DNA of 64,000 nucleotides, from the NCBI GenBank assembly GCA_937146645.1, contig CAKZRQ010000056.1, positions 1-64,000 on the forward strand, read 5' to 3'. The stretch is from an uncultured Cyclobacteriaceae bacterium. Its GTDB lineage: Bacteria; Bacteroidota; Bacteroidia; Cytophagales; Cyclobacteriaceae. The position numbers and the translations under genes were made by a program. Every line of letters starts with the position of its first letter. Position 1 is the stretch's first letter. Below, one piece after another: positions 30,646 through 56,394 of the stretch. The notes under the pieces are model-generated. The model saw nothing but the letters and a program-made list of their open reading frames with translations, was not told the DNA's origin and searched no databases.

Positions 30646-31198
30646 TCCTAGAATCAAAGCGAAGTACGTAGAAGAAATCGTACCAGCTCTTAAAGAGAAA
30701 TTTCAATACACTTCAGTAATGCAGGTGCCAAAGTTGAGCAAGATTGTGCTTAACAAAGGAATCGGCGCTGCTGTAGCGGATAAGAAATTGGTAGACCAGG
30801 GAGTGGAAGAGCTTTCACTTATCACAGGTCAGAGAGCCGTAGCTACTAAGGCAAAGAACTCTATCTCTAACTTTAAGCTTAGAGAGGGGATGCCTATCGG
30901 TGCTAAAGTGACTTTGAGAGGTGATAGAATGTTTGAATTCCTTGATCGTCTAATGACTGTAGCTCTTCCAAGAGTAAGAGACTTCAAAGGAATCTCTGAT
31001 AAGGGATTTGACGGAAGAGGAAACTACACTCTTGGGGTATCTGAGCAAATTATCTTCCCAGAGATCAGCATCGAAAAGGTGAACAGAATCTCAGGAATGG
31101 ATATCACATTTGTGACTACTGCAAATTCAGACGAGGAAAGCCTTGCGCTACTTAAAGCGTTTGGAATGCCTTTCGCTAACCAAAATAAAGAGAATTAA
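30638..31198 (+). CDS. rplE: 50S ribosomal protein L5
   Basis: [61 protein letters not shown]. Confidence 0.99.
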
Positions 31199-31200
31199 TC

Positions 31201-31470
31201 ATGGCAAGAGAGTCAATCAAAGCACGTGAAAGAAAGAGAGAGCGATTGGTAGCCAAGTATGCCAAGAAAAGAGCCGAGCTAAAAGCTGCTGGTGATTACG
31301 AGGCGCTTGACAAGCTTCCAAAGAATGCTTCTCCCGTAAGACTTCATAACAGATGTAAACTGACTGGTAGACCTAAGGGCTACATGAGAAAGTTTGGGAT
31401 CAACAGAGTTACTTTCAGAGAAATGGCCGCTAATGGCGAGATCCCTGGAGTAACGAAGTCTAGCTGGTAA
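31201..31470 (+). CDS. rpsN: 30S ribosomal protein S14 (zinc-independent form)
   Basis: 89 aa; [40 protein letters not shown]; no CxxC pairs. Confidence 0.98.
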
Positions 31471-31507
31471 AATAGCGACAGTAGTTTTTATAATAAGAAT
31501 CAATTCG

Positions 31508-31534
31508 TAACTTTGCCCCCCGTTTGGGCGGAGC
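31508..31534 (+). promoter_or_regulatory. Candidate internal promoter -7 element plus GC-rich stem-loop upstream of rpsH
   Basis: TAACTTTG (31508-31515) followed by GCCCCCC-GTTT-GGGCGGAGC; no good -33 TTG at the right spacing. Confidence 0.5.
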
Positions 31535-31549
31535 TAGACTTAAAAGAAA

Positions 31550-31945
31550 ATGACAGATCCAATAGCTGACTATCTTACTCGATTGAGAAATGCCATCAAG
31601 GCATCTCATCGAATCGTGGAGATTCCTGCTTCTAATTTGAAAAAGGAAATCACGAAAGTATTGCATGATAAAGGATACATCCAGAATTATAAATTCGAAG
31701 AAAATGGGCCTCAGGGTACCATTAAGATTGCTTTGAAGTATAATCCTGCTACCAAAAAGAATGCAATCGTAAGCCTGCAGAGAGTGAGTACTCCAGGCTT
31801 AAGAAAATATGTAAAACATACCGAACTTCCTCGCGTGATCAACGGTCTTGGAGTAGCAGTAATCTCTACCTCTAAAGGTGTGATGACTGACAAAGAAGCC
31901 AGAGTTGAAGGTGTAGGTGGTGAAGTTCTTTGCTACGTTTATTAA
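31550..31945 (+). CDS. rpsH: 30S ribosomal protein S8
   Basis: MTDPIADYLTRLRNAIKASHRIVEIPASNLKKEITKVLHDKGYI. Confidence 0.99.
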   Translation: MTDPIADYLTRLRNAIKASHRIVEIPASNLKKEITKVLHDKGYIQNYKFEENGPQGTIKIALKYNPATKKNAIVSLQRVSTPGLRKYVKHTELPRVINGLGVAVISTSKGVMTDKEARVEGVGGEVLCYVY

Positions 31946-31954
31946 TAAACACTC

Positions 31955-32512
31955 ATGTCTAGAATAGGTAAAAAACCAATAGATCTACCCAGCGGTGTTA
32001 CTGTAGACGTGTCAGCTCAAGGGCTGGTCACTGTTAAAGGTCCAAAGGGTACGCTTACGCAGGATGTTCATCCGGACATCGCTGTGAAAGTAGAAGAAAA
32101 CCAGGTGGTTTTGGAAAGACCAACTGAGTCAAAGAGACATAAGTCATTTCACGGGCTATACAGATCTCTGATCAACAACGCTGTTGTGGGAGTTTCTGAA
32201 GGGTACGAGAAGAAGATTGAACTTGTGGGTGTAGGTTATAAAGCATCAAATGCCGGTCAGGTACTTGAGCTTAACCTAGGTTACTCTCACAACATTTTCT
32301 TTGCTCTTCCAGAAGAGATCAAAGTAGCAACTGAAACTGTTAAGGGTAAGAATCCAATTATTACACTTAATGGAAATGACAAGGAATTGATCGGGCAGGT
32401 AGCTGCTAAGATCAAGAGCCTGAGAAAAGTCGAGCCATACAAAGGAAAAGGTGTGCGCTTCGTCGGTGAGCAAATTAGACGTAAGGCTGGTAAAACTGCC
32501 GCTAAAAAATAA
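31955..32512 (+). CDS. rplF: 50S ribosomal protein L6
   Basis: MSRIGKKPIDLPSGVTVDV...VTVKGPKGTL. Confidence 0.99.
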   Translation: MSRIGKKPIDLPSGVTVDVSAQGLVTVKGPKGTLTQDVHPDIAVKVEENQVVLERPTESKRHKSFHGLYRSLINNAVVGVSEGYEKKIELVGVGYKASNAGQVLELNLGYSHNIFFALPEEIKVATETVKGKNPIITLNGNDKELIGQVAAKIKSLRKVEPYKGKGVRFVGEQIRRKAGKTAAKK

Positions 32513-32518
32513 TAGGTT

Positions 32519-32869
32519 ATGGCATTTAATAAGAATTCCAGAAGACTTAGAATCAAGCAGGGTATCAGAAAGAAGATTTCTGGTACTGATTCCAGACCTA
32601 GACTATCTGTATTCAAAAGTAACTCAGGTATCTACGCTCAATTGGTTGATGATCTTAAGGGTCATACATTGGTACAGGCATCTTCAAAAGAGCTTGGTGC
32701 TAAAGAAAATGTAAAGGTTGACGTTTCTAAAGAGGTAGGAAAGAAGCTTGCTGAGCGAGCGGTAGCTGCCGGAGTGAACGAAGTAGTGTTTGACAGAAAC
32801 GGATACTTGTACCATGGTAATGTGAAAGCTTTGGCCGACGGAGCCAGAGAAGGAGGCCTTAAATTTTAA
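32519..32869 (+). CDS. rplR: 50S ribosomal protein L18
   Basis: RPRLSVFKSNSGIYAQLVDDLKGHTLVQASS...VFDRNGYLYHGNVKALADGAREGGLKF. Confidence 0.99.
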   Translation: MAFNKNSRRLRIKQGIRKKISGTDSRPRLSVFKSNSGIYAQLVDDLKGHTLVQASSKELGAKENVKVDVSKEVGKKLAERAVAAGVNEVVFDRNGYLYHGNVKALADGAREGGLKF

Positions 32870-32875
32870 TCAAAG

Positions 32876-33394
32876 ATGTCTGAACTAAGAAAAAAGCCTA
32901 TCAGGGCTACAGATACAGAGCTTAAAGAAAAAGTCGTTGCTATAAACAGAGTAGCGAAAGTAGTTAAGGGTGGTCGTAGATTCTCCTTCTCAGCTATCGT
33001 TGTTGTAGGTGACGGAGACGGTGTAGTAGGTTACGGATTGGGTAAAGCCAATGAGGTGACTGATGCTATCACTAAAGGTATCGAAGATGCTAAGAAAAAC
33101 TTGGTGAGGGTACCAGTACTTAAGGGTACTATTCCTCACGAGCAGATTGGCAAATATGGTGGAGGTTTTGTTTTGATTAAGCCTGCAGCTCCTGGTACTG
33201 GTGTAATCGCCGGTGGTGCGATGCGTGCGGTACTTGAAAGTGCTGGTGTAACTGACGTACTTGCCAAGTCGAAAGGTTCTTCTAATCCACATAACGTGGT
33301 GAAGGCAACCATCCATGCTTTGACTCACTTGAGAGATGCAATTGCTGTTTCACAGCAAAGAGGAGTAAAAATGGCTAAGGTATTTAACGGTTAA
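32876..33394 (+). CDS. rpsE: 30S ribosomal protein S5
   Basis: [37 protein letters not shown]. Confidence 0.99.
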
Positions 33395-33399
33395 GAATC

Positions 33400-33579
33400 A
33401 TGGCTAAGATTAAAATTACTCAGGTAAAAAGTATCATTAACAGACCAAAGGATCAAAAGGGTACTATAGCGGCTCTAGGGCTTGGTAAAATGAATAAATC
33501 CGTGGTTCATGAGGCTACTCCTCAAATCCAGGGAATGGTTAATAAGGTGAATCACCTAGTAACAGTAGAGGAAGTTTAA
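33400..33579 (+). CDS. rpmD: 50S ribosomal protein L30 (not in supplied ORF track)
   Basis: Translated by eye: [59 protein letters not shown] (59 aa), between rpsE and rplO. Confidence 0.96.
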
Positions 33580-33581
33580 TT

Positions 33582-34031
33582 ATGAAACTACATACATTAA
33601 AACCAGCAGAAGGCTCCACTAAAAACAGAAAGCGAATCGGTCGTGGACAAGGTTCGGGGCGTGGAGGCACATCTACTAGAGGTCATAAAGGTGCTAAGTC
33701 AAGATCAGGTTATAAGACTAAGCTAGGTTTTGAAGGTGGTCAGATGCCACTTCAAAGAAGAATTCCTAAGTTTGGATTTAAACCTTTCAACAGAGTTGAG
33801 TTCAAGCCAGTAAATCTGGATACTCTTCAGGATCTTGCCGAGAAGCATAACCTTGACACTGTAACCTTGGATACTTTGGTATCTCACGGAATCGCTTCTA
33901 AGAATGATAGAATTAAAATTCTTGGTGGTGGTGAATTGAAAGCCAAACTAGATGTGACAGCGCATCAATTCTCAGCTTCAGCAGCGGCTGCAATTGAGAA
34001 GAATGGTGGAGCGGCAAATAAAATTGATTAA
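33582..34031 (+). CDS. rplO: 50S ribosomal protein L15
   Basis: [48 protein letters not shown] overlap with secY. Confidence 0.99.
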
Positions 34032-43007: not shown

Positions 43008-43835
43008 ATGAATTCATTTTTAGAAAAGCTACACGCAGCGCACCGCGACTGTAGTGACTGCCCCTCTCCAAAAGCCGTTCAGGATTTCTTTTCTGAAGTC
43101 TTGGGACTTCTGTTTCCAGAGTTCACGGTTCAAAGAATTGAAGACCCTGATGAAATAAGAAAAGAGCTCAATCGGCTTGAAAGTTATTTTTCTGATTTAT
43201 TGATTCGGAATCCTCATTTATATGAAGGTGATGGGAAAGAAATAGCAAAAGCTTTTTTCAGCAATCTTGAGAGAGTATTCGATTCCATTAATCAGGATAT
43301 TGATGCGATGTTTGAAGGTGACCCTGCTGCTAAGAGCAGAACCGAAATAGTGAGAAGTTATCCTGGCTTTTTTGCGATAGCAGCCTATCGCGTGGCGCAT
43401 GAAATTCATAAGCTTGGTGTTCAATTGATCCCGAGAATTATTACTGAGTTTGCCCACGGCAAAACAGGGATAGACATTCATCCAGGAGCCCAGATAGGTC
43501 ATCATTTCTGTATAGATCATGGTACTGGAGTTGTGATTGGTGAAACCACCAATATTGGTAACCATGTGAAGATTTATCAGGGAGTTACTCTTGGAGCTCT
43601 TAGTGTTCGAAAGAAGGATGCCGATAGCAAAAGACATCCTACCATAGAGGATAAAGTGGTCATTTATGCTGGAGCGACGATTTTGGGCGGTGAGACGACA
43701 ATTGGGGAGAACACAGTGATCGGAGGAAATGTATGGCTCACTAAAAGTGTTCCTGCTAACAGTAGAGTTTACTACCAGTCCAGAATGCATAATGAGAATT
43801 CTGGCGTTACCGATACCTACGTTTTCAAAGGATAA
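43008..43835 (+). CDS. cysE: Serine O-acetyltransferase
   Basis: GIDIHPGAQIGHHFCIDHGTGVVIGETTNIGNHVKIYQGVTLGAL hexapeptide repeats; adjacent to cysteine synthase. Confidence 0.93.
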   Translation: MNSFLEKLHAAHRDCSDCPSPKAVQDFFSEVLGLLFPEFTVQRIEDPDEIRKELNRLESYFSDLLIRNPHLYEGDGKEIAKAFFSNLERVFDSINQDIDAMFEGDPAAKSRTEIVRSYPGFFAIAAYRVAHEIHKLGVQLIPRIITEFAHGKTGIDIHPGAQIGHHFCIDHGTGVVIGETTNIGNHVKIYQGVTLGALSVRKKDADSKRHPTIEDKVVIYAGATILGGETTIGENTVIGGNVWLTKSVPANSRVYYQSRMHNENSGVTDTYVFKG

Positions 43836-43838
43836 AAA

Positions 43839-44717
43839 ATGAAGCTTTTTGAATTAATTGGAAATACTCCATTGGTGGAGCTACGGTCCATTCCCACTAA
43901 TCCAAATGTCCAGATTCTGTGTAAGATGGAGGGTCAAAATCCTGGTGGAAGTGTAAAAGATAGAGCCGCATATAATATGCTTCAATCGGCTCTTGACAGA
44001 GAAGAAATTAAGCCCGGAGATAAACTAGTCGAAGCGACGAGTGGAAATACTGGAATAGCCTTGGCCATGGTGGCCAAAGTCTTGGGACTCGATATGACAC
44101 TGATCCTTCCTGATAACTCTACTCGCGAAAGAGTTTTATCTATGGAGGCTTTTGGAGCCCGAGTAATTCTTACACCTGCGGCAAAAACCATCGAGTATTC
44201 CAGGACACTTGCCGAGGAAATGCGTGATGAAGAAGGCTACTTCATGCTGAATCAATTTGGCAACCCGGATAATTACATGGCTCATTACAAAACTACCGGC
44301 CCAGAAATTTGGAGGGAGACCGAGGGGAAGGTTACTCACTTCGTTTCAGCGATGGGAACCACCGGGACAATCATGGGTGTTTCACGATTCCTTAAGGAAA
44401 AGAATTCCAAAATCCAGATAGTAGGAACTCAGCCAACTGATGGATCCAGAATTCCTGGAATCAGAAGATGGTCCCCAGAATTTTTACCCAAGATTTTCGA
44501 ACCAGAACGGGTAGATCGAGTGATTGATGTGTCTCAAGATCAAGCCACAGCCATGACGAGGAGAATGGCCAAAGAAGAAGGAATCCTTGCAGGCATGAGT
44601 AGTGGAGGAGCACTCTCAGCTGCCATCGAGCTTTCTAAAGAATTAGAAGAGGGTCTGATCGTGTGTATCACCTGCGATCGAGGAGATAGGTATTTAAGTT
44701 CTGATTTATTCGGTTGA
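43839..44717 (+). CDS. cysM: Cysteine synthase (CysM-type)
   Basis: LIGNTPLVELRSI...KMEGQNPGGSVKDRAAYNML...TSGNTGIALAMVA; 292 aa, CysM length class. Confidence 0.9.
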   Translation: MKLFELIGNTPLVELRSIPTNPNVQILCKMEGQNPGGSVKDRAAYNMLQSALDREEIKPGDKLVEATSGNTGIALAMVAKVLGLDMTLILPDNSTRERVLSMEAFGARVILTPAAKTIEYSRTLAEEMRDEEGYFMLNQFGNPDNYMAHYKTTGPEIWRETEGKVTHFVSAMGTTGTIMGVSRFLKEKNSKIQIVGTQPTDGSRIPGIRRWSPEFLPKIFEPERVDRVIDVSQDQATAMTRRMAKEEGILAGMSSGGALSAAIELSKELEEGLIVCITCDRGDRYLSSDLFG

Positions 44718-44727
44718 GCTCATTGAT

Positions 44728-45639
44728 TTAAACTAGGGTCTTCATCTTTGCTAGTCCTGTGCTGGCTACCTCTAGGGCATCCATTTCCCATAAGGCGGGA
44801 TTGAAAAGTTCGAGGGAAAGAATCTTGGTTCCGCCCATCGCGGTCAGTGTTTCCATGATCTCTTTGATCGGTGAGGCGCCGTCACCAGGATATACACGAT
44901 CCTTATCTTCTTGCTGTTCGCGAGGAATATCGCTCACGTAATCGTTCAAGTGGAAAATTTCAATGGCATTCCCATTAATCAGTTTTAATCCTTCAAATCC
45001 CGAACCACCGCGGAAAAGGTGATAAATATCTGGAAGTAATCTGGCGTCAGGATCGTTTGCTGCGGCTGCCACTGCAAGAGCTTGACTCAAGTGATAAAAA
45101 GGTTTATATGCTCCCCAGAATTCCAGCTGAGGCATCACTCCGGTTTTTCTACCTAACTCAAGGAGTCGAGCATACTTCTCACCTGCTTCTAATGGATCTA
45201 CCGGAGCTACCGTCCCAATGGCAGGCGCTGCTATTCGTGTACAACCTATTTCAGCCAACATATTCATTTCTCTTTCCATCTGCTCAAAACCGGCCTTACT
45301 CGTAGCTTCATCCTGTGCCATCCATTTGGCAAAACCTATGGCACTGAAAGCTTCAAGGTTATTATCCCTGAGTGTCTTTTTTATTTGAGCTAAGGAACCT
45401 CCTTCTTTTAAGAAACTTTCCATATCTCTTATCCAGACTTCAATTCCATCGTAGCCTGCTTTTCCTGCTGTTTCCAAAGTTTTGAGTAGCCCAAGGTTTT
45501 GGCCAGAGATGGTGCTAGTATTTAGTGAAAACAGAAAATTCGCTGATTTCTTCGGCTTTGCTTCGCTAATCTGCGTAGCTAATGGTAATGCAGCGGTTCC
45601 TAAGGCTAGGGATTTCAGGACTTTTCTACGATTGGTCAT
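44728..45639 (-). CDS. Sugar phosphate isomerase/epimerase family (TIM barrel) with Tat-like signal
   Basis: MTNRRKVLKSLALGTAALPLATQISEA leader; AGYDGIEVWIRD, FHLNDYVSDIPREQ...YPGDGASPIKEIM. Confidence 0.82.
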   Translation of the reverse strand: MTNRRKVLKSLALGTAALPLATQISEAKPKKSANFLFSLNTSTISGQNLGLLKTLETAGKAGYDGIEVWIRDMESFLKEGGSLAQIKKTLRDNNLEAFSAIGFAKWMAQDEATSKAGFEQMEREMNMLAEIGCTRIAAPAIGTVAPVDPLEAGEKYARLLELGRKTGVMPQLEFWGAYKPFYHLSQALAVAAAANDPDARLLPDIYHLFRGGSGFEGLKLINGNAIEIFHLNDYVSDIPREQQEDKDRVYPGDGASPIKEIMETLTAMGGTKILSLELFNPALWEMDALEVASTGLAKMKTLV

Positions 45640-45727
45640 AGGTTTAATTTTTTTTGAGCTATGTTTCAAAGAATATGTTCCTCATCCCCCGAATGGATCA
45701 GTGCAGAGTACAAACACCCTTTGGTTA

Positions 45728-46456
45728 ATGTTAAAAATAATTTTTTTTATCACATCATTTCTTCTTTTGGGATGGTCGGCAAAAGCTCAAGAACCGGAAA
45801 TTACTGAGTCCTTTTTGGCATTATATCAGGAGCAGCTTCCCTTTTTTCAGGAATTAATCACTGGAGGAGAATATGCAGATTCTCCAAATACGGTAGATGG
45901 AAAACCGTATTATAAGTCACAGCATTTTGATTTCGGACTCTTAAGCATCAATGGAATCGATTATCAAGAGGTCCCCATGCTTTATGATTCCTATAAGGAC
46001 CATCTTGTGACTTTTCATCCTATTCACAAGCAAAAAATCTTGATGAAGCCGGAAAAGGTGGAGGCCTTTAAAATTTTCGAAACGGAGGAGTTCCAATTTT
46101 TTGAGGGAAATGAGAATTACAATAAACATCGAAATGGGTTTTATAAGGTGGTTTCTGGAGATGAAGTGAAGGTTTTGATCAAGCATTATAAGGAACTGAA
46201 GCCCTCTAAAGACATCAGACAGTATCTGTATGAGCTGAAGGAATATGAGGATTACTTCCTTTGGTATCAGGGAGATTTCATAAAAGTGGAAAAAATGAAA
46301 TCCGCGATTAAATCTCTTGGTCTGGATAAGAAAGAGGTAAGAAAGGCTCTAGGATGGAGTCAATACAGATTCAAGCAGGATACTCCAGGGTTTTTAAAAG
46401 AGCTCGTTGCCTATCATTCGGAGATTAATTCTTCTTTCACTGGTTTTACGAAATGA
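45728..46456 (+). CDS. Exported protein of unknown function, coupled to the downstream TonB receptor
   Basis: MLKIIFFITSFLLLGWSAKAQEPEITESF...; start trimmed from ORF 45482 (upstream part overlaps the divergent gene); stop overlaps next start (ATGA). Confidence 0.7.
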   Translation: MLKIIFFITSFLLLGWSAKAQEPEITESFLALYQEQLPFFQELITGGEYADSPNTVDGKPYYKSQHFDFGLLSINGIDYQEVPMLYDSYKDHLVTFHPIHKQKILMKPEKVEAFKIFETEEFQFFEGNENYNKHRNGFYKVVSGDEVKVLIKHYKELKPSKDIRQYLYELKEYEDYFLWYQGDFIKVEKMKSAIKSLGLDKKEVRKALGWSQYRFKQDTPGFLKELVAYHSEINSSFTGFTK

Positions 46457-49188
46457 AGAAACTGCTACTCTCAATTTTTTTCATTTGTATGGTATTCTTG
46501 GCCTTCGGTCAAAGCCAGGAAGAGAAAATAACAGGTGTATTTGCTCAAATGAATTTTGAAAGATTTGCGTCAGCATTAGAAAAGCAAACCTCCTACCAGT
46601 TCTACTTTAGGCAAAAGGATGTCAAAGATTTGAAGGTCAATCTACAGGTCACCGAAGCCTCCCTTCCAAATATCTTAAATGAAGTCTTCACCGACACTGA
46701 TCTCAAGTACACGATTGATAGCAATAAGGGTGTCTGGATTTCTTTGAATTCCAGAATGCAAATGAATTTCAGCTCTGACTTTTTTGAAATAAAGGAGAGG
46801 TCGGAAAATGAAAATCGCGGAACAGATTCCGTGGATCGTTTCGCTAGAAATAAGCTTTACACGATTGGTAAACAAGGAGATAATCCAGGTAGTAGTACGG
46901 CTACTATAAGTGGGATAGTTCGAAGCATTGAGAATGGGGAGCCAATGGTAGGAGCGATTGTGCTGGAAAAAGTGGATTTCAATCAAATCGTAACAGGACC
47001 TGATGGGTATTACGAACTTACTTTACCGAAAGGTAGGCACACTTTAGTCGTCCAAAATATTGGAGGATTTCAAGAGCAGCGGCAGATTAACCTATTAGGA
47101 GATGGGAAGCTGGATATGCTCATTGCTGAAACGGTACTTTCCCTTGATGAGGTGGTCGTGAGTTCAGGAGCATTATCAAACATCCAAAAACTCGACATGG
47201 GAGTACAATCCATTTCCATAGATGAGGTCAAGCGTTTACCTGCGGTTCTTGGTGAAGTTGATTTGGTGAGAGGGATTCTTACTATGCCAGGGGTGAATAC
47301 CGTGGGTGAAGCCAGCGTAGGTTTTAACGTCAGGGGTGGGGCTGCAGATCAAAATTTGATTCTTTACAATAAGTCCACAGTCTTCAATCCGAGCCACGTT
47401 TTTGGGTTTTTCTCGGCCTTCAATGCAGACCTAACTTCTGGGGTGGAATTATATAAAGGTTCTGTTCCTGTTAACTATGGAGGTAGACTTTCATCCGTAC
47501 TCCAAATAGATGCTGATTTTGGGTCAGACGAGAAATTTTCTGGTAGCGGTGGTATCGGACTCTTAACTGGTAGGTTAAGTCTGGAGGGACCCTTGACGGA
47601 GAAGACAACATTCAAAATAGGAGGAAGGGCCACCTATTCAGATTGGGTTTTGAATTTACTCGAGGATGAAACTGACCTGAATGGAAGTGACGTTTCTTTT
47701 TATGATTTGAATGCGAACATCCGACATCAAATAGACGAGAAGAATATTCTTGAATTCACAAGTTATCTAAGTCAGGACGATTTTAGCTTTGACCCTGACA
47801 CTACATTTAATTACCGGAATGTGAACGTGGCAGGTACCTGGAGGCATTTCTTTAATGACCAATTAGAAGCAGATTTCACGCTTGGGTATGATAGCTACGA
47901 TTTTGGGATCATAGGCATCGAGAACCCATTAAATTCATTCAATTTTACCTTTGAAGTAGAGCAGCTTCATCTGAGGTCCGATTTTCAATACCGAAAGAAT
48001 GAGAATCACTTATTCAAGTTTGGATTACATGCCATTCAATACGATCTAGACCCTGGTACAAATCAGCCTTTTGGCCCCGAATCCATAGTCCTTGAGCAGG
48101 ATTTAGAACGCGAAAGAGCCCGTGAGATTTCTGTTTATTTTGGAGATGAATTTACCATAAGTGAACAGCTAAGTGTCAGCTATGGAGGTCGATACATGTT
48201 CTATCAAATGTACGGTCCCCAAACTATTAACCAATACGTCCCTGGTGCTCCGCTTACCGAGAGCAATGTTATTGGGGAAGAGACTTTTGAGACTGGAGAG
48301 ACCATTCAAACTTACCATGGTCCTGAATTTAGGGTTTCAGCCAGATACATTTTGGGCAATGAATCTTCGATCAAGGCTGGATTCAATACCATGAGACAGA
48401 ATCTCCATCTTCTCACTAATACATCGGCTATCGCGCCAACAGATTCATGGAAACTTAGTGATTCTTTTATCAAACCGCAGACAGGGGGGCAAGCTTCCAT
48501 CGGTTACTACCGAAATTTGGCCAGGGGCCAAATAGAATTCAGTACAGAAGTTTATTACAGGTACATGAGGAATCTTCTCGATTTCCGATCTGGTGCCACT
48601 TTGATTTTGAATGAAAATATTGAACAAGATGTCTTGAACTCAGATGGCCGAGCTTATGGAATTGAGTTCTTACTTAAGAAAAATGTGGGTGATTTAACTG
48701 GATCCCTAGCATATACTTATTCTCGCTCCTTTCTCAGAACTTCTGATGATCCAAGTGTAGAGAAAATCAATGATGGGGAATTTTACCCCAGCAATTTTGA
48801 TCAGCCGCATAATGTGGTGTTAGCACTGAATTATGAGCTAAGTAAAAGAATAAACACTACACTAAATACAAACTACAGTACGGGAAGGCCGGTGACTTTA
48901 CCAATTTCAAAATTTGAATATGCTGGTTCTGAACGTGTGTTCTTCTCGGACCGGAATGCTTATAGGATTCCAGATTTCTTCAGGATTGATTTCTCAGTGA
49001 ATCTCGAGGGAAATCATAAGGTGGATAAGATAGCCCATGCTTCGTGGTCCTTTGGAGTGTACAATCTTTTAGGTCGTAGCAATCCTTACTCAGTGTATTT
49101 TACACCTGTTGAAGGGCAAATAAGGGGCTTCCAGCTTTCAATTTTTGCGAGGCCAATTCCTTTCATTACGTATAATTTCAGGTTTTGA
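46453..49188 (+). CDS. TonB-dependent receptor with STN-like N-terminus and carboxypeptidase-regulatory-like domain
   Basis: 911 aa; EKITGVFAQMNFERFASALEKQTSYQFYFRQKDVKDLKVNLQVTEASLPNILNEVF (STN-like), SGIVRSIENGEPMVGAIVLEKV..., plug GEVDLVRGILTMPGVNTVGEASVGFNVRGGAADQNLILYN. Confidence 0.9.
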   Translation: MKKLLLSIFFICMVFLAFGQSQEEKITGVFAQMNFERFASALEKQTSYQFYFRQKDVKDLKVNLQVTEASLPNILNEVFTDTDLKYTIDSNKGVWISLNSRMQMNFSSDFFEIKERSENENRGTDSVDRFARNKLYTIGKQGDNPGSSTATISGIVRSIENGEPMVGAIVLEKVDFNQIVTGPDGYYELTLPKGRHTLVVQNIGGFQEQRQINLLGDGKLDMLIAETVLSLDEVVVSSGALSNIQKLDMGVQSISIDEVKRLPAVLGEVDLVRGILTMPGVNTVGEASVGFNVRGGAADQNLILYNKSTVFNPSHVFGFFSAFNADLTSGVELYKGSVPVNYGGRLSSVLQIDADFGSDEKFSGSGGIGLLTGRLSLEGPLTEKTTFKIGGRATYSDWVLNLLEDETDLNGSDVSFYDLNANIRHQIDEKNILEFTSYLSQDDFSFDPDTTFNYRNVNVAGTWRHFFNDQLEADFTLGYDSYDFGIIGIENPLNSFNFTFEVEQLHLRSDFQYRKNENHLFKFGLHAIQYDLDPGTNQPFGPESIVLEQDLERERAREISVYFGDEFTISEQLSVSYGGRYMFYQMYGPQTINQYVPGAPLTESNVIGEETFETGETIQTYHGPEFRVSARYILGNESSIKAGFNTMRQNLHLLTNTSAIAPTDSWKLSDSFIKPQTGGQASIGYYRNLARGQIEFSTEVYYRYMRNLLDFRSGATLILNENIEQDVLNSDGRAYGIEFLLKKNVGDLTGSLAYTYSRSFLRTSDDPSVEKINDGEFYPSNFDQPHNVVLALNYELSKRINTTLNTNYSTGRPVTLPISKFEYAGSERVFFSDRNAYRIPDFFRIDFSVNLEGNHKVDKIAHASWSFGVYNLLGRSNPYSVYFTPVEGQIRGFQLSIFARPIPFITYNFRF

Positions 49189-50354
49189 TGAAAAATCGAA
49201 TTCACATATTTCTCATCCTGATTTTCTTGGTTCTAAGCTGTAGAGAACCTTTTGAACCTGTCATTGAGCCTACTGATCAAAACGTTTTGGTAGTGGAAGG
49301 ATATCTGGATTCTGATGGAACGCCAAGCATCCTGAGTTTAAGTTTTACCACCGACCTTCAAAGTAATTTTCAGCCTAGTTCTTCATTAATTGGGGCTTCC
49401 GTTTTTCTTGAAGCGTCCAATGGAGGTCAGTTTTCATTGATTGATCAAGGGAACGGTGATTACCTTTTTGAAACGGATATCCCTGAAAATGATACCTACA
49501 GACTAAGGATATTTCTGACCAATGGAAATTCCTACACTTCGGAAGATTTAAATCCTATAATTACACCAGATATCATTGATGTGGGTTATGTAAGGAATGA
49601 AACTGGAGTCGAGATTTTTCTCACTACCCAAGGAGATGAAAATGCTGACGACTTTCTATGGACATATGAAGAGACCTGGGCCTTTAGACCGGCCATAGAA
49701 TCTCAGTTTAAGTATGATCCTGACATTTTCGATGTGGTCCTAAGAGGACCAGATGAAAGAATCGACCTATGTTATCGAAGTTTCCCAAATTCAGATTTGA
49801 TTCTTGAGACATCCTCAAGATTTGAGGATCAGTTCGTATTTCGTCAATCCATAGCTCAAATCGAAGATGGAGACGAGAAGCTCTCGGAGAGGTATAGTAT
49901 TCTGATTTCACAAAAAGCCTTATCTAAAGAAGATTCTGAGTTTTGGGAAATTCTAAAAAAGAACACTGATGATCTCGGCTCTATTTTTAGTCCACTACCG
50001 TCTTTAATCGGAGGTAATATTACATTAGATCAAAATCCAGATGTTCCGGTTATTGGACAAGTCTCATTAGGCAAAGTGAGGCAGCGAAGATTGTTTATTG
50101 ATAACCAAGAGATTACTCCATGGTTAATGCCCGAAGTGCCCGAATATGAGGGATGTGTCATTTCTGCGGATACAGTTTTTATTGCAAGCTATGACGCGGT
50201 ATTCAGAAGTGGAGTGAACATTCCTGTTCGTCCGGTCATTCCTGAAGGAGGCTTTAACCCGGTTGGATATAGAAGTGCCCCAGTAAACTGTGTTGATTGT
50301 ACACGGAGAGGAACTAATGTTGCACCTGACTTTTGGGAGGACGATCAACCGTGA
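49188..50354 (+). CDS. DUF4249 lipoprotein
   Basis: Lipobox VLSCREPFEP; VVEGYLDSDGTPSILSLSFT; C-terminal CVDCTRRGTNVAPDFW. Start ATG at 49188 (TGATG overlap). Confidence 0.85.
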   Translation: MKNRIHIFLILIFLVLSCREPFEPVIEPTDQNVLVVEGYLDSDGTPSILSLSFTTDLQSNFQPSSSLIGASVFLEASNGGQFSLIDQGNGDYLFETDIPENDTYRLRIFLTNGNSYTSEDLNPIITPDIIDVGYVRNETGVEIFLTTQGDENADDFLWTYEETWAFRPAIESQFKYDPDIFDVVLRGPDERIDLCYRSFPNSDLILETSSRFEDQFVFRQSIAQIEDGDEKLSERYSILISQKALSKEDSEFWEILKKNTDDLGSIFSPLPSLIGGNITLDQNPDVPVIGQVSLGKVRQRRLFIDNQEITPWLMPEVPEYEGCVISADTVFIASYDAVFRSGVNIPVRPVIPEGGFNPVGYRSAPVNCVDCTRRGTNVAPDFWEDDQP

Positions 50355-51964
50355 AAAAACTCGTGTCACTTTTTCTTGTGATTCTACTTTTTGAATCATC
50401 ATTTGTCCTGGGTCAGGAAAATCTCAATCTAAAGCAAGAGACCATTGAGTTTGATTTCCCAAAATCCATTTTCTTTTCAGGAGAAAAGCTTTGGATAAGT
50501 TTGGAAGTCAGTACGATCGGGACCAGTACCGGTTCTCAGATTGCTTATGTGGAACTCCTAAACAGGGAAGGTGAATCTGTGGCCTTGGGAAAATTTCAAC
50601 TTGATGATGGCAAGGCTATTAATTTCCTACAAATTCCAGATAACCTGGTTTCAGATAATTATTTGCTTCGGGCTTTTACCAGGGTTAGCCCCTATTTGGA
50701 TTTGGATAAAGGCCTACGGCAAAGCTTGGTTACCATTATTAGTCCTAGAAATCCACCTAGAATAGTTGAGAAAAGAGAGCCAATCGAAATAGATTTTTAT
50801 TCGGGCTTTGAATTGATTAATCCCAAGGGTACCTCAGATGAATTTAAGTTGGAATTAGATGCTTTAAAAGGGGAGTTTGTAAGTGCCTCTGTGTCCGTGG
50901 TAAATCCATTTTTGGAACCACACGAAAATTTAATTTCTTCTGAAATTTATAAGGGCCTTGAACCCAGAGCTTTGGTGCCTGAATTATTTGGCCATCTGGT
51001 TGAAGGTTATGTCAACCCGTCTGCCGTAGATACTACCCAACTTTACTTCCTGTCGGTCCATGGTGATAAATCAGCTTTGTTTACAGATCGGCCAGATAAG
51101 AATGGAGCGTTGTTTTTTGATACGGGAGGAATAAAGGAATGGGATTTTATCATTGCTCAAACGAATGGAAATGAAAGCTTAATCGATTTCAGCATAGTTT
51201 CACCATCACCAAAAACTACTTTCTCAGAAGACTTTGAAATACCTGAGTTAGTTTTTTCACCGGAGGATAAGAGTTTTTTGGAGAAACTGCTCAAAGCAGG
51301 ACAGATTGAAAGCTATTTCCTTCAAGAGTTTGAGCAAAAAGAGATTCCTATAGTCACAGGCTTTGTGGAGGATCAAACTTATTTTCTCGATGACTACACT
51401 CGTTTTGAAGATGTGGAGACGGTAATTAAGGAATATGTTCCGGAGATCGGTGTTAAGACGGTCGAAAAGAGAAAAGAATTTAGGGTGCTGGATAAGGTTA
51501 AAAACCGGGTTTTTGATTCGAATCCATTGATGCTTATCGATGCCATGCCAGTATTTGATTCTGATAAGCTTTCGAAATTTGACCCAACAGAATTCGAGAA
51601 ACTGGAAATTCTCACCCGCAGCTTTTATTTGAATGAGGAGGCTTTCTCAGGGGTTATGAGTTTCACTTCGTTTGAAAATGATTTTGCAGATTATCCTATT
51701 CCTTCTAATGGAATTTATCTGGATTATCCCGGAATAGCCCAAAGGGTGACAGTGTTTCCTGGTCTTTTTTCACAAAGCGAAGAAGAACGAATTCCTGAGC
51801 TAAGAACCATTCATTATTGGTCTGAGACCGAGGGAGATTTTGTTCAGGATGAGATTTCTGTCCCACTTATCTCATCCGATTTCCCAATGGAAATTCGAGT
51901 TAAGATCAGAAACGAAAATGGAGAATTAGAGACTTTGCATCAGCGAATTGAAACCTCTAAATAA
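50351..51964 (+). CDS. Exported protein with possible MG2-like beta domain, unknown function (GTG start)
   Basis: VKKLVSLFLVILLFESSFVLGQ signal; ETIEFDFPKSIFFSGEKLWISLEVSTIGTSTGSQIAYVELLNREGESVALGKFQLDDGKAINFLQIP resembles MG2 domains; GTGA overlap with upstream stop. Confidence 0.65.
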   Translation: MKKLVSLFLVILLFESSFVLGQENLNLKQETIEFDFPKSIFFSGEKLWISLEVSTIGTSTGSQIAYVELLNREGESVALGKFQLDDGKAINFLQIPDNLVSDNYLLRAFTRVSPYLDLDKGLRQSLVTIISPRNPPRIVEKREPIEIDFYSGFELINPKGTSDEFKLELDALKGEFVSASVSVVNPFLEPHENLISSEIYKGLEPRALVPELFGHLVEGYVNPSAVDTTQLYFLSVHGDKSALFTDRPDKNGALFFDTGGIKEWDFIIAQTNGNESLIDFSIVSPSPKTTFSEDFEIPELVFSPEDKSFLEKLLKAGQIESYFLQEFEQKEIPIVTGFVEDQTYFLDDYTRFEDVETVIKEYVPEIGVKTVEKRKEFRVLDKVKNRVFDSNPLMLIDAMPVFDSDKLSKFDPTEFEKLEILTRSFYLNEEAFSGVMSFTSFENDFADYPIPSNGIYLDYPGIAQRVTVFPGLFSQSEEERIPELRTIHYWSETEGDFVQDEISVPLISSDFPMEIRVKIRNENGELETLHQRIETSK

Positions 51965-51976
51965 TGGTTTATAAAA

Positions 51977-53635
51977 CTACTTCTTTCCGAATTCCTGCTC
52001 AAGAAAAGCACCGAGTTTTCTTTTATAGCTTTCTTCAGTCTCCTGGCTAAAATCTGGAGATAATTCCTTCTTTTCTGGGAAGGATTCCATATGCAATGTT
52101 TGAGTTGGGAAAGCGAATCTCACCCCTAAGCTATCCGCGAGCTTCATGATTTGAAGTAATAATTCATGTCTGCACTGAAGCTCCATAGGCCAGGTTGGTA
52201 CTTCAAAAAACACATAAAACATCACGTCCAAGCTGAATGAGGACATGTTGTTGAAATAGATATTGAAGTAGTCCTTTCGGGTGTGAGGATGCGCCAAAAC
52301 TATTTCCCTCAGCCCTTTTACAAATTGCTCCACCAATTCAGGTGGGGTGTCATAGGTAATCGTTATCGTCGTATAAAACCTTCGGTACTGTCGCAGTCCA
52401 TGATTATCTACCGTGGCGTCAGCAATTTTACCATTCGGGATGTACATGACAGAATTGCGGAAAGTTCGAACTCGAGTAGACCTGAATCCTACCTCTTCCA
52501 CTGTCCCATCTACATCTCCAGAGGTAATCCAGTCACCCACCTGGAAAGGTCGATCCACAAAGATCATAATGGACCCAAAGAAATTCTTTATCGTATCCTG
52601 AGCCGCAAGGGCAATGGCCACACCACCAATGGAGAGACCGGTAAGGAATGGAATGATATCCAGATTCAGCCCGTCGCGAAGTATGAAAAGCGTTCCTATT
52701 ATCACCACGAAAGCCTTAAGAGTCTTTCGGAGCAATGGAACCAACTGATCATCCAGAGTAGATTCAGTTTTGAGTGCAAGCGTACCAAAATACACTGCAA
52801 TCACATCCACTACTTTATAGAAGATGATGGTGATCATGAGTGGTTTCAAAACCATAAAAATGACCACTAACCATGACCATACTTCTATGGGTAATTGTAG
52901 CACTCTGATGAAGAGCGAAAGCAGTAAGACTACAAAATATATACTCGTGACTTTGGCAACAGGAAGCAGGTATTGTTCACCTTGAGTTCCATAGCCTAGC
53001 CGAGACATAATGTAAAGTAGAACTTTGTCCACCAGAAAGGTCAGAACCCAATGAGTGAGAAAAACAAATAGGATAAGAAAGGCTAACCCAACAATCTGCC
53101 ATAAGTACAATCCAAGGTACTTGTCTGTCCCAACCTTGGGAAGAAGATTTAGCAGTCGAGCAGTACCATAGGGATAGGTTTGTCTGTGCATCCTCTCAAT
53201 TTCTCCCACAGAGAAACTGGAAAACTTCCATTCTTCCCCTCTTTTGGAAAGGAATATACCAGGTAGCTTTTGCCGATCGAAGTAGAAGATGTTTTCATCT
53301 CCAGCCAGGCTATCCAGATAACCAGGTTCGTTTGGAATTTGGCTGGTCCTAACAGCTACACCTCGTCCTTCAAAAATTTGCTTAAGCTTAACGCTTAAAT
53401 CTTCTTTATCGGCTTCTTCAAGCCCCTTCCAATTCAAAGCCTTTGCGGCTTGATCTGGTTTGAAATTATTGTCCTCTAAATTATAGAAGAAGGTCAGAGT
53501 GGTATGGTACGGAGTAGTCAGGTTGACATCATAGTCAATTTCTTCCAACGCATTATCATCAGAGACTAGCTGCGCAAAAGTACTTTGCGAAGCAATAATA
53601 AAAAGGAAGAAAAGGGTGATTTTGAGGTATTTCAT
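51977..53635 (-). CDS. Mechanosensitive ion channel family protein (MscS-like)
   Basis: GLSIGGVAIALAAQDTIKNFFGSIMIFVDRPFQVGDWI is the MscS pore/beta-domain signature; start trimmed to the signal-peptide Met. Confidence 0.93.
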   Translation of the reverse strand: MKYLKITLFFLFIIASQSTFAQLVSDDNALEEIDYDVNLTTPYHTTLTFFYNLEDNNFKPDQAAKALNWKGLEEADKEDLSVKLKQIFEGRGVAVRTSQIPNEPGYLDSLAGDENIFYFDRQKLPGIFLSKRGEEWKFSSFSVGEIERMHRQTYPYGTARLLNLLPKVGTDKYLGLYLWQIVGLAFLILFVFLTHWVLTFLVDKVLLYIMSRLGYGTQGEQYLLPVAKVTSIYFVVLLLSLFIRVLQLPIEVWSWLVVIFMVLKPLMITIIFYKVVDVIAVYFGTLALKTESTLDDQLVPLLRKTLKAFVVIIGTLFILRDGLNLDIIPFLTGLSIGGVAIALAAQDTIKNFFGSIMIFVDRPFQVGDWITSGDVDGTVEEVGFRSTRVRTFRNSVMYIPNGKIADATVDNHGLRQYRRFYTTITITYDTPPELVEQFVKGLREIVLAHPHTRKDYFNIYFNNMSSFSLDVMFYVFFEVPTWPMELQCRHELLLQIMKLADSLGVRFAFPTQTLHMESFPEKKELSPDFSQETEESYKRKLGAFLEQEFGKK

Positions 53636-53685
53636 CACGTATGATTTGGGCCGCAATTTAATTATATGCCCATATAAGGCAAAAC

Positions 53686-56394
53686 TCAATAGGCCAAGGA
53701 GTATTCAGTAACCTGATTTCTGGCCTTACACCTAATAAGGTATTGTTGACCAGAGGGATCAAAACTAACATCTAGTTTCCCACTACTTTCAAGTGGTAAG
53801 GTGGTAAGTAAGTTGCCTTCTGCATCATAGAGATAGCTGAACTCCTGGATTAAGTCCGTGACTGCGATGATTCTCCTGTTCGTACCAAAATTGAAAAATT
53901 GGATCTCGAAGGATTCTGTAGAAGTGCTGACAGTGAAGATCTCTTCCTCTTGCGAATCGAGTATCTTGATTTTATTGAATTCTTTTCCAACAATTAGAAA
54001 ATCACTTTCTATTTGATCGGCTACTATGAAAAATTCACTATCGGCCCCTTCTTTAACGAGCTGGTTGGTATAAGTGATTTCACCATTGAAATTTGCCTTG
54101 ACTATTTCTCCTCCTGTTGAAATGTTAACCAATTCAAGGATTTTGCTTGAAGGATTATTAAATGCCATAACAGGAGATTCAAAACTTGTACCTAGATTTA
54201 AAGGGTTAGCTACTTTTCTTTCTCCGCGCCGGTTAAAGAAATGCAATAATCCTGGCTCCGTAAATGCAATCATGTAATCTCCTTTTCTAGGCACTCTGAC
54301 ATGTCTTGGACGACCTATTGTTTTCGCACCGACGGGTTTAGGATTCCATCCATCAAGCCTCTTTCCTGTTTTGTCGAGTAGATAGAGCCGACCATCCTCA
54401 GTACTAACAAAATATCTATAGGCCTTTGTGTTGCTATAATCCACTAGGTTAAGTGAACTGATCTTCTTCTGAGGGATGGCTAAAGGATATCCTCTAAGCG
54501 GATTCCCTAAACGGTCAATCCCATAAATTTTGTTTTCCGTGGCTAGTAAAAGTTGAAGCTTGCCGTTTTTAAAATAGTCAACTTGGAAGGCATCAGAAAT
54601 CACCGGTCCATCTAAGGAAACTGAGTACACTTGACTACCTGTGGAGTTAAGAAGAATGAGGTTATAATTTTCGTCTTGAACCACAATATCTTCCGAGCCA
54701 TCTTGATAATTCTTTATGACTTTTGGCCCAAATATTAGATTGCTTTCAAAGTTAATTCTATTGGTAGGCTCTAGTGCGATGGCTTCTTGTTCCGGCTCTA
54801 AAGGAGCAGCTTCTATACCTGAAAAGGGGAATGAAAGAGTAGCTGTTAAACGATCGGGGTACTGGTTAAGCTTAAAGCTTATTCCGTAGAATTGCTGAAA
54901 GCTAGACCGATATCTTTGAAAGAAACTATTCCAGGCAGGTGAAGCTGCTGAGGTCCATGCATCCCATGATTTATCACTCAGAATAAGTTTCGAGAAACCG
55001 GAACTCGCTGTCAATGAATTCTTCATAGGATTTGAGCGAGTGCTTTTTCCCCAAGTATCTCCATTAGCAATATCATCCAGCATTAGTTTCATGCTTTGCT
55101 GGTTATTACTGAAGAGCAAAATCTCATCAATTGCAGCCACCCAGGTTTGATTAAAACCCTGGAATTTTCCATTAAAAATATGTGCTACAAAGTCCTGCTC
55201 ATTTATCAAAATGATCTCCTGATCCCGATAGAAATCAGAAACTACTTCACCTTCCTGATTTTGATAATTTTTTAATAATTCTAGCACCGCCATGGAATTT
55301 GAACTTCGAGCTATCAAGCCAAAATTCTCATTGATAGGACCAATTTTTTCTAATCGAAGAAAGTATAGGTCCCCATAAAAAGTGTCTAAGAAGCCTTTAG
55401 AGAGTAACTCAAGTTCAATTTGCGCGGTAAGTGTCTCACGAATATTGAATGCTCTATTGACCAGTTTTTGAGTTTCATAGATACTCTCCAGATTAACTTG
55501 GGTGATAGCAGATGTACCTGAAGGTATCACACCGAGAATCGCATTGATATTGGCATCGATGGATGGAGTGAAGTCCACATCTTCAGGAATTGTGACATTC
55601 CCAATGAATCCTAATTCATAGGGTTTCAGATTTAAATCCAAAGCCATCCCTTGTTGATATTGTTCAAATTTTGCAATCGTAGGGTCGGTATTTTTGCCCT
55701 GAACTGTCCTAAGTAGATTGGATAGACCGGTACTTGTGAGAAAGATTCTTCCTTCAGACTCTTGTTCTTGAATTTCCTCCTCAAAGAAAGACGCGAAGTT
55801 CGGCTGATCGGGATTTTCATAAAACCGGATAGCTTCCTCGATTAAGAAGGACGATCCTGACACCAATATTAGATCTCCCAAAAATGCGACACTCCATTTC
55901 CTATCATTATTACCATCGAAAAGCTCTAGGATCTCGCGACCACTGTAAGTTCGACTTTGGAAGCGTTCACCATTTTGAAGTTTTTCTGTGACCAGATCGA
56001 TCATATCCCGCGCTTTACCCTCACGGAGATTGATCATGTACATGAGATCAAAATTTTCTTTTCCCACCGGGTGGAGACTTATTGTGGTTTGAGTCCCGGA
56101 AAGTTCGGTAGATAGAATTCCTTGGGAGCCAGTGAGACTATCCAAGGCTATTAATTGATCTGAAACCTGCTTGAATGCCGGAAAATTCTGAAGTAAAGAA
56201 TAAGCCTTTGAATCTACTAGTTGATTCCATGTGTTTGCAGCATTGTAGGATTCCAAGGTGAAAACTGCATCCTGAGAAACTAGCTCGAGATTATTAACTT
56301 TTTTGGATGAAAAAAATGTCCTTGAGATCAACCATCCTGCAAGAACTACTAATCCAATCAAAAGACTAATGATGGTACTTTTCCAGATATTCAC
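53686..56394 (-). CDS. Membrane-anchored large protein; possible DUF3352-like N-terminal half and beta-propeller-like C-terminal half
   Basis: 902 aa; single N-terminal TM (STIISLLIGLVVLAGWLI); C-terminal repeats such as NKIYGIDRLGNPLRGYPL, GRLYLLDKTGKRLDGWNPKPV, GLLHFFNRRGERKVANPL. Confidence 0.6.
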   Translation of the reverse strand: MNIWKSTIISLLIGLVVLAGWLISRTFFSSKKVNNLELVSQDAVFTLESYNAANTWNQLVDSKAYSLLQNFPAFKQVSDQLIALDSLTGSQGILSTELSGTQTTISLHPVGKENFDLMYMINLREGKARDMIDLVTEKLQNGERFQSRTYSGREILELFDGNNDRKWSVAFLGDLILVSGSSFLIEEAIRFYENPDQPNFASFFEEEIQEQESEGRIFLTSTGLSNLLRTVQGKNTDPTIAKFEQYQQGMALDLNLKPYELGFIGNVTIPEDVDFTPSIDANINAILGVIPSGTSAITQVNLESIYETQKLVNRAFNIRETLTAQIELELLSKGFLDTFYGDLYFLRLEKIGPINENFGLIARSSNSMAVLELLKNYQNQEGEVVSDFYRDQEIILINEQDFVAHIFNGKFQGFNQTWVAAIDEILLFSNNQQSMKLMLDDIANGDTWGKSTRSNPMKNSLTASSGFSKLILSDKSWDAWTSAASPAWNSFFQRYRSSFQQFYGISFKLNQYPDRLTATLSFPFSGIEAAPLEPEQEAIALEPTNRINFESNLIFGPKVIKNYQDGSEDIVVQDENYNLILLNSTGSQVYSVSLDGPVISDAFQVDYFKNGKLQLLLATENKIYGIDRLGNPLRGYPLAIPQKKISSLNLVDYSNTKAYRYFVSTEDGRLYLLDKTGKRLDGWNPKPVGAKTIGRPRHVRVPRKGDYMIAFTEPGLLHFFNRRGERKVANPLNLGTSFESPVMAFNNPSSKILELVNISTGGEIVKANFNGEITYTNQLVKEGADSEFFIVADQIESDFLIVGKEFNKIKILDSQEEEIFTVSTSTESFEIQFFNFGTNRRIIAVTDLIQEFSYLYDAEGNLLTTLPLESSGKLDVSFDPSGQQYLIRCKARNQVTEYSLAY

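Follow-up and report, generated by a model that had tools for sequence, protein, structure and literature searches.

Receptor operons and the four-gene locus

TonB-dependent receptors are, as a class, importers that use the energy of TonB, and in the accepted view the STN domains found on such receptors serve FecR-type anti-sigma factors as handles. In Bacteroides thetaiotaomicron, BT2172/BT2173 is a conserved operon in which a TonB-dependent receptor is followed by a DUF4249 lipoprotein, and mutations in the two genes have similar consequences (PMC11003636). We have analysed a window (the whole stretch of 64,000 nucleotides) where a receptor and a DUF4249 gene, likewise in one conserved operon, lie between two further genes for exported proteins, here called gene 1 and gene 4. 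Set against BT2172/BT2173, as known from its published description and not from the BT2172 sequence, the module adds an STN-like domain, a long linker, a Cys-tailed DUF4249, gene 1 and an MG2/plug protein. Since the receptor-DUF4249 operon has already been published (PMC11003636), the new part is the four-gene version, of which a literature search, made mostly outside subscription journals, found no description. The search turned up a single paper that names DUF4249, and none that brings STN domain, FecR and Bacteroidetes together. An earlier reading of this DNA from its letters alone (the sequence-only reading) had put the four genes forward as a candidate new system; the claim stands for the four-gene version and falls for the receptor-DUF4249 pair.

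The sequence, read directly, holds four plus-strand ORFs at 45728-51964, each overlapping the next:

45728 to 46456, plus strand: gene 1, exported protein of 242 aa, signal peptide at about residues 1-20
46453 to 49188, plus strand: gene 2, TonB-dependent receptor of 911 aa, ATGA overlap with gene 1
49188 to 50354, plus strand: gene 3, DUF4249 lipoprotein of 388 aa (PF14054, E 2.7e-34), directly downstream of the receptor gene, TGATG overlap with it
50351 to 51964, plus strand: gene 4, exported protein of 537 aa, GTG start, GTGA overlap with gene 3
43008 to 44717, 44728 to 45669 and 51977 to 53689: flanks, with serine acetyltransferase, cysteine synthase, a Tat-signal sugar-isomerase-like TIM barrel and an MscS-type channel

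All three junctions were verified, and each gene carries the export signal that had been claimed for it, a hydrophobic N-terminal signal peptide in genes 1, 2 and 4 and the lipobox VLSC in gene 3, whose lipid Cys18 lies at 49239-49241. The overlaps suggest that the four genes may be translationally coupled. By themselves they would be weak evidence for a module, and it is the conservation of the gene set that raises the locus above chance. Its immediate neighbours are the Tat-signal TIM-barrel gene (minus strand) and the MscS-type channel gene, and the genes flanking the Algoriphagus locus L057 match those of the window module. Promoter and terminator scans gave fewer matches than shuffled sequence and are uninformative, the sigma-70 consensus of the tool being ill-suited to Bacteroidota.

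No FecR, sigma factor or SusD gene adjoins the module in the window, in agreement with the earlier statement that an anti-sigma factor or SusD partner is missing, and the two FecR genes of the genome are both on other contigs. SusCD systems resemble the module in pairing a TonB-dependent receptor with a lipoprotein, but here the lipoprotein is a DUF4249 protein with a predicted Ig/Fn3-like fold, and there are two further exported proteins. SusCD is ruled out, as gene 3 is a DUF4249 gene and none of genes 1-4 has a SusD match. FecIR-coupled STN receptors share with the module an N-terminal STN domain, a single gene upstream that encodes an exported or membrane protein and, in seven loci, a downstream DUF4249; in the module, however, the place upstream is taken by gene 1, which matches neither FecR nor FecR_C, a sigma factor is lacking, and the linker after the STN-like domain measures 47-69 aa and not 6-23 aa. 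An adjacent FecIR system is ruled out as well, with no FecR/sigma pair adjoining and no FecR match in gene 1. The module is therefore neither SusCD nor FecIR, in agreement with the sequence-only reading.

The four proteins

Gene 1 has no Pfam or NCBIfam match, its homologues have no Pfam match, and no FecR or FecR_C match was found in Pfam at E values up to 1. Its AlphaFold2 model (pLDDT 87) is beta-rich with three C-terminal helices. Nothing significant was found in the PDB by sequence profile, and by fold the best Foldseek hit (E 0.2, probability 0.10) is no match. The protein thus belongs to no recognised family, in line with the earlier claim, and without FecR, FecR_C or SusD matches it is, by sequence, not a known FecR- or SusD-type partner. 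A missing PDB relative is no proof of a new fold.

The receptor has the following parts:

46531 to 46743, plus strand: STN-like domain, residues 27-97 (PF07660 E 1.8e-4, PF16344 E 4.6e-3, both below cut-off)
46744 to 46905, plus strand: module-specific linker from the STN-like to the CarbopepD domain, residues 98-151, ending in a conserved NKLYxIG type motif
46906 to 47160, plus strand: CarboxypepD_reg-like domain, residues 152-236 (PF13715, CarbopepD_reg_2, E 8.4e-11)
47203 to 47487, plus strand: plug domain, residues 251-345 (PF07715 E 6.7e-5, 0.1 bit below cut-off)

The identity of gene 2 as a TonB-dependent receptor, a plug followed by an outer-membrane barrel, comes through its homologues. 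In those aligned end to end (39-45% identity) the plug scores above cut-off, and homologue L069 has both the barrel and an above-cut-off FecR_C match (PF16344). The STN-like domain of the window receptor aligns with the STN of FecR-type receptors. A sequence comparison with the PDB gave nothing significant. Together with the CarbopepD_reg_2 match (E 8e-11), the above-cut-off matches in homologues uphold the description of gene 2 as an STN-like TonB receptor, its own STN and plug scores lying below cut-off.

The linker between the STN and CarbopepD domains is 47-69 aa long in 130 modules, compared with 6-23 aa in FecR types; in MG2-bearing receptors without gene 1 it is 27-41 aa, and 68 aa in L246. 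In the modules it ends in a conserved segment like ENKLYEIG. The IG-type motif is present in 111 of the 130 module linkers (background 0.175 per window), and most of ten inspected linkers that miss it have LG or VG.

The DUF4249 lipoprotein carries the hallmark of the four-gene version at its C terminus:

50289 to 50336, plus strand: C-terminal Cys tail, CVDCTRRGTNVAPDFW, residues 368-383

This CxxC...PxF/Y tail is present in 129/130 modules, whereas only 4/35 two-gene DUF4249s have it, and four cysteines besides the lipid Cys are invariant among the module proteins. Searched by sequence profile, gene 3 gave nothing significant in the PDB. Its AlphaFold2 model (pLDDT 90) matches Fn3/Ig-like tandem domains at E 3e-5 with TM-scores of only about 0.2-0.36, so that DUF4249 is predicted to consist of beta-sandwich domains and not to have the SusD fold. 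Two surface-export motifs, K-(D/E)2 and SDDDD, have been described after the lipid Cys (PMC5080379); the residues at this place in the DUF4249 proteins are often C-R-E-P-[YF], which matches neither.

Gene 4 has no Pfam or NCBIfam match and nothing significant in the PDB by sequence profile. Homologues alignable over the same region reach up to 37.5 bits for MG2, several of them over or near the Pfam cut-off, and the relationship of gene 4 to proteins of 770-856 aa with MG2 and a plug-like C-terminal region extends along its full length. The name MG2-like, given earlier to gene 4, therefore holds through the homologues and has no Pfam match in the window protein itself. The window copy is a short form, lacking the middle MG-like region of these longer homologues; family f25, Flavihumibacter and P. 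distasonis have short forms too. Bacterial alpha-2-macroglobulin-like proteins share the N-terminal MG2 domain seen in the gene 4 homologues; in contrast, the gene 4 family lacks the thioester and has a C-terminal plug-like domain. None of the 130 modules has the thioester motif C-x-E-Q, and the window copy lacks Cys altogether. An alpha-2-macroglobulin-like protease trap is ruled out by the missing motif, and the proteolysis-protection and export ideas of the sequence-only reading gain little.

Conservation of the gene set

Homologues of the four genes co-occur in other genomes, which is the decisive evidence that they form one module. The order gene 1-receptor-DUF4249-MG2/plug is kept in Cytophagales, where such conservation had been suggested as a check, in Sphingobacteriales, Chitinophagales and another family of the class, and in Parabacteroides distasonis. 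In the window's genus, which by the closest named relatives of the receptor is most probably Algoriphagus, 37 genomes were searched and 36 have gene 1, and in Algoriphagus genomes the gene order matches the window wherever the neighbours are readable. Four other families of the order have an identical gene order at 19-26% identity for gene 1 and 21-23% for gene 4; between orders the set persists at 20-30% identity of these two genes, and the neighbouring genes differ.

A receptor-based search found the same set at 80 named loci, in Cyclobacterium, Mucilaginibacter, Hymenobacter, Pontibacter, Dyadobacter, Niastella and others. Of 119 full-length related receptors, 117 are preceded by gene 1; the other two start at most 62 bases from the locus end, cut at contig ends. 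Gene 1, at least one DUF4249 gene and the MG2 protein stand in order at 103 of these 119 loci, many of the remaining 16 being cut at contig ends. The DUF4249 gene is present in one to four tandem copies per module, and modules L165 and L202 are without it. The P. distasonis record reads hypothetical-receptor-DUF4249-hypothetical, in the order of the window; by its label, this record is a 237-kb plasmid.

Across a sample of 396 Bacteroidota genomes, the receptor profile scored at least 1223 bits at 36 places and at most 973 at all others. Where the surroundings of the high-scoring places could be examined, gene 1 was present at 34/35, the exception being L246 in genome G360; in L238 (G115) its match is a 156-aa fragment. 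In the same sample, every fetched gene 1 match outside the genus with an E value better than about 3e-18 lies in a module, and weaker ones are stand-alone relatives. By receptor score, 31 of the 396 genomes have the four-gene module. DUF4249 is present in 257 of them, which makes the module a minority type among DUF4249 systems. From this conservation we conclude that the four genes very probably constitute one functional unit.

The simpler systems differ from the module in a consistent manner. Four other DUF4249 genes of the window's genome adjoin three receptors. All three are without the ~150 N-terminal residues that make up the STN-like domain, and they have neither gene 1 nor the MG2 protein. 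Both are likewise absent from 23/23 STN-less receptor-DUF4249 pairs and from 30/30 STN-less receptors of a DUF4249-centred sample, two sets that overlap. Where STN-bearing receptor-DUF4249 pairs lack the MG2 protein, a FecR gene precedes the receptor in 7/7 cases (L229, L236, L239, L244, L247, L259, L270), with FecR confirmed by Pfam in all seven and DUF4249 being a Pfam match in L229, L236, L244 and L270. We found no description of DUF4249 in such FecR-coupled operons, and an ECF sigma gene is seen in L259 and seemingly in L270. The position of FecR in these operons is that of gene 1 in the module, and no locus was seen with both. Finally, L235, L246, L252 and L260 hold an STN-bearing receptor, DUF4249 and the MG2 protein with neither gene 1 nor FecR detected upstream, which suggests that the MG2 protein does not depend on gene 1.

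Two variants of the module were also noticed: one genome of the genus has its last two genes swapped, giving gene 1, receptor, MG2 protein and DUF4249 (L242:2941-9290), and one genome of family f25 carries a tandem duplicate of the module (L132:534-11943).

Proposed role and rival explanations

We propose, with a probability of roughly 0.45, that the products of the four genes form a TonB-driven outer-membrane uptake complex, with gene 1 as the periplasmic partner of the STN-like domain and linker. The receptor would be the channel, and the DUF4249 lipoprotein, sitting on the barrel and probably at the cell surface, would capture the substrate. Gene 1 would stand in for FecR, docking on the STN-like domain and the linker next to it, and the MG2/plug-like protein may be a second periplasmic partner that touches the N-terminal domains of the receptor. 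Together the two would receive or gate the incoming ligand and send no signal to a sigma factor. By analogy with the two-gene kind (PMC11003636), the receptor and DUF4249 may act together, and an uptake complex of these two is the probable core of the proposal. That gene 1 is the STN/linker partner is tentative and somewhat less likely than the proposal as we have put it; its main ground is that gene 1 stands in the operon place of FecR and never with it.

We also compared distance matrices over 108 loci. Rank-based partial distance correlations were 0.36 for DUF4249-barrel, 0.16 for gene 1-STN, 0.22 for gene 1-MG2 protein and 0.24 for MG2 protein-CarbopepD, with bootstrap intervals above zero and a weak signal that varies with subsampling. 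Distances of DUF4249 go with those of barrel and plug, distances of gene 1 with those of STN, linker and MG2 protein, and distances of the MG2 protein with those of CarbopepD. Taken with the mutants of the two-gene system (PMC11003636) and with the importer character of the receptor class, this pattern favours a placement of DUF4249 at the barrel and of the products of genes 1 and 4 in the periplasm; it is from such evidence that we infer the locations, contacts and transport direction of the complex.

The main difficulties for the uptake complex are the four MG2-bearing loci without gene 1 and the existence, in Algoriphagus relatives, of gene 1-DUF4249 pairs without receptor or MG2 protein (L056:4530-6456, L063:4150-6076, L057:4220-6095, L045:9067-10942), found alone or directly upstream of a full module. 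These pairs fit a tie of gene 1 to DUF4249 better than one to the STN. Modules L165 and L202, without DUF4249, and the lack of a published surface-export motif (PMC5080379) in DUF4249 also stand against it.

The receptor-free pairs also bear on the rival that survives best, an assembly or export role, in which the tandem DUF4249s would be cargo, and gene 1 and the MG2/plug protein periplasmic chaperones delivering them to the receptor or holding them on it. The one to four tandem copies per module fit such a role, and DUF4249 gives the largest Pearson partial correlation of gene 1 (0.44). This value falls, however, to 0.15 with ranks and to 0.01 in long-form loci. A strong gene 1-DUF4249 tie was thus overstated by Pearson, and since it mostly disappears with ranks and subsampling, co-evolution lends weak support only. 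Moreover, STN-less receptors manage DUF4249 without gene 1 or the MG2 protein, and TonB-dependent receptors are established as importers. We regard the assembly role as improbable.

Less probable still is an ordinary nutrient operon that would carry genes 1 and 4 as passengers or for unrelated envelope roles and would keep them by operon inheritance only. Paralogues of both occur alone elsewhere, suggesting that the two folds are useful outside the module, and the Algoriphagus locus sits in a fixed neighbourhood; but the set is retained from one order to another, with genes 1 and 4 sharing 20-30% identity and with different neighbours, and every part has module-specific features. Surface signalling, where the STN would act by way of FecR and sigma genes at another locus and gene 1 would tune the signal, is the least probable of the three: the STN-like domain, the two FecR genes elsewhere in the genome and the FecR-type receptors with DUF4249 would suit it, but no FecR or sigma gene adjoins the module in the window or stands among the module genes upstream of the inspected receptors, and FecR types lack the 47-69-aa linker.

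In the uptake complex, the receptor family would have kept its STN, lengthened the linker and swapped FecR for gene 1, offering a direct way to test whether such domains have further functions. It is doubtful, in our estimate, that gene 1 is a new class of STN-domain partner with an undescribed fold, replacing FecR, and that the STN thereby drives, in the periplasm, a machine made of gene 1 and the MG2/plug protein, and not transcription. DUF4249, which has no known function, gains a defined four-protein setting, one that includes the gut genus Parabacteroides.

Relatives of genes 1 and 4 were also observed outside the module. The window's genome has four longer MG2/plug-like paralogues (open frames of 878-939 aa), of which three cluster in about 27 kb of a single contig. 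Bacteroidota genomes also hold, widely spread and without the module, stand-alone relatives of gene 1 (L085-L116); they are exported, with ORFs of about 230-250 aa, those that were tested fit no Pfam family, and they share a conserved GSPY-type motif near the N terminus. Their positions are as follows:

G000:C23:53130-57547 and 31068-33701, G000:C37:274201-274554: MG2/plug-like paralogues
L092:8326-8985, L098:8727-9449, L114:9092-9769: examples of stand-alone gene 1 relatives
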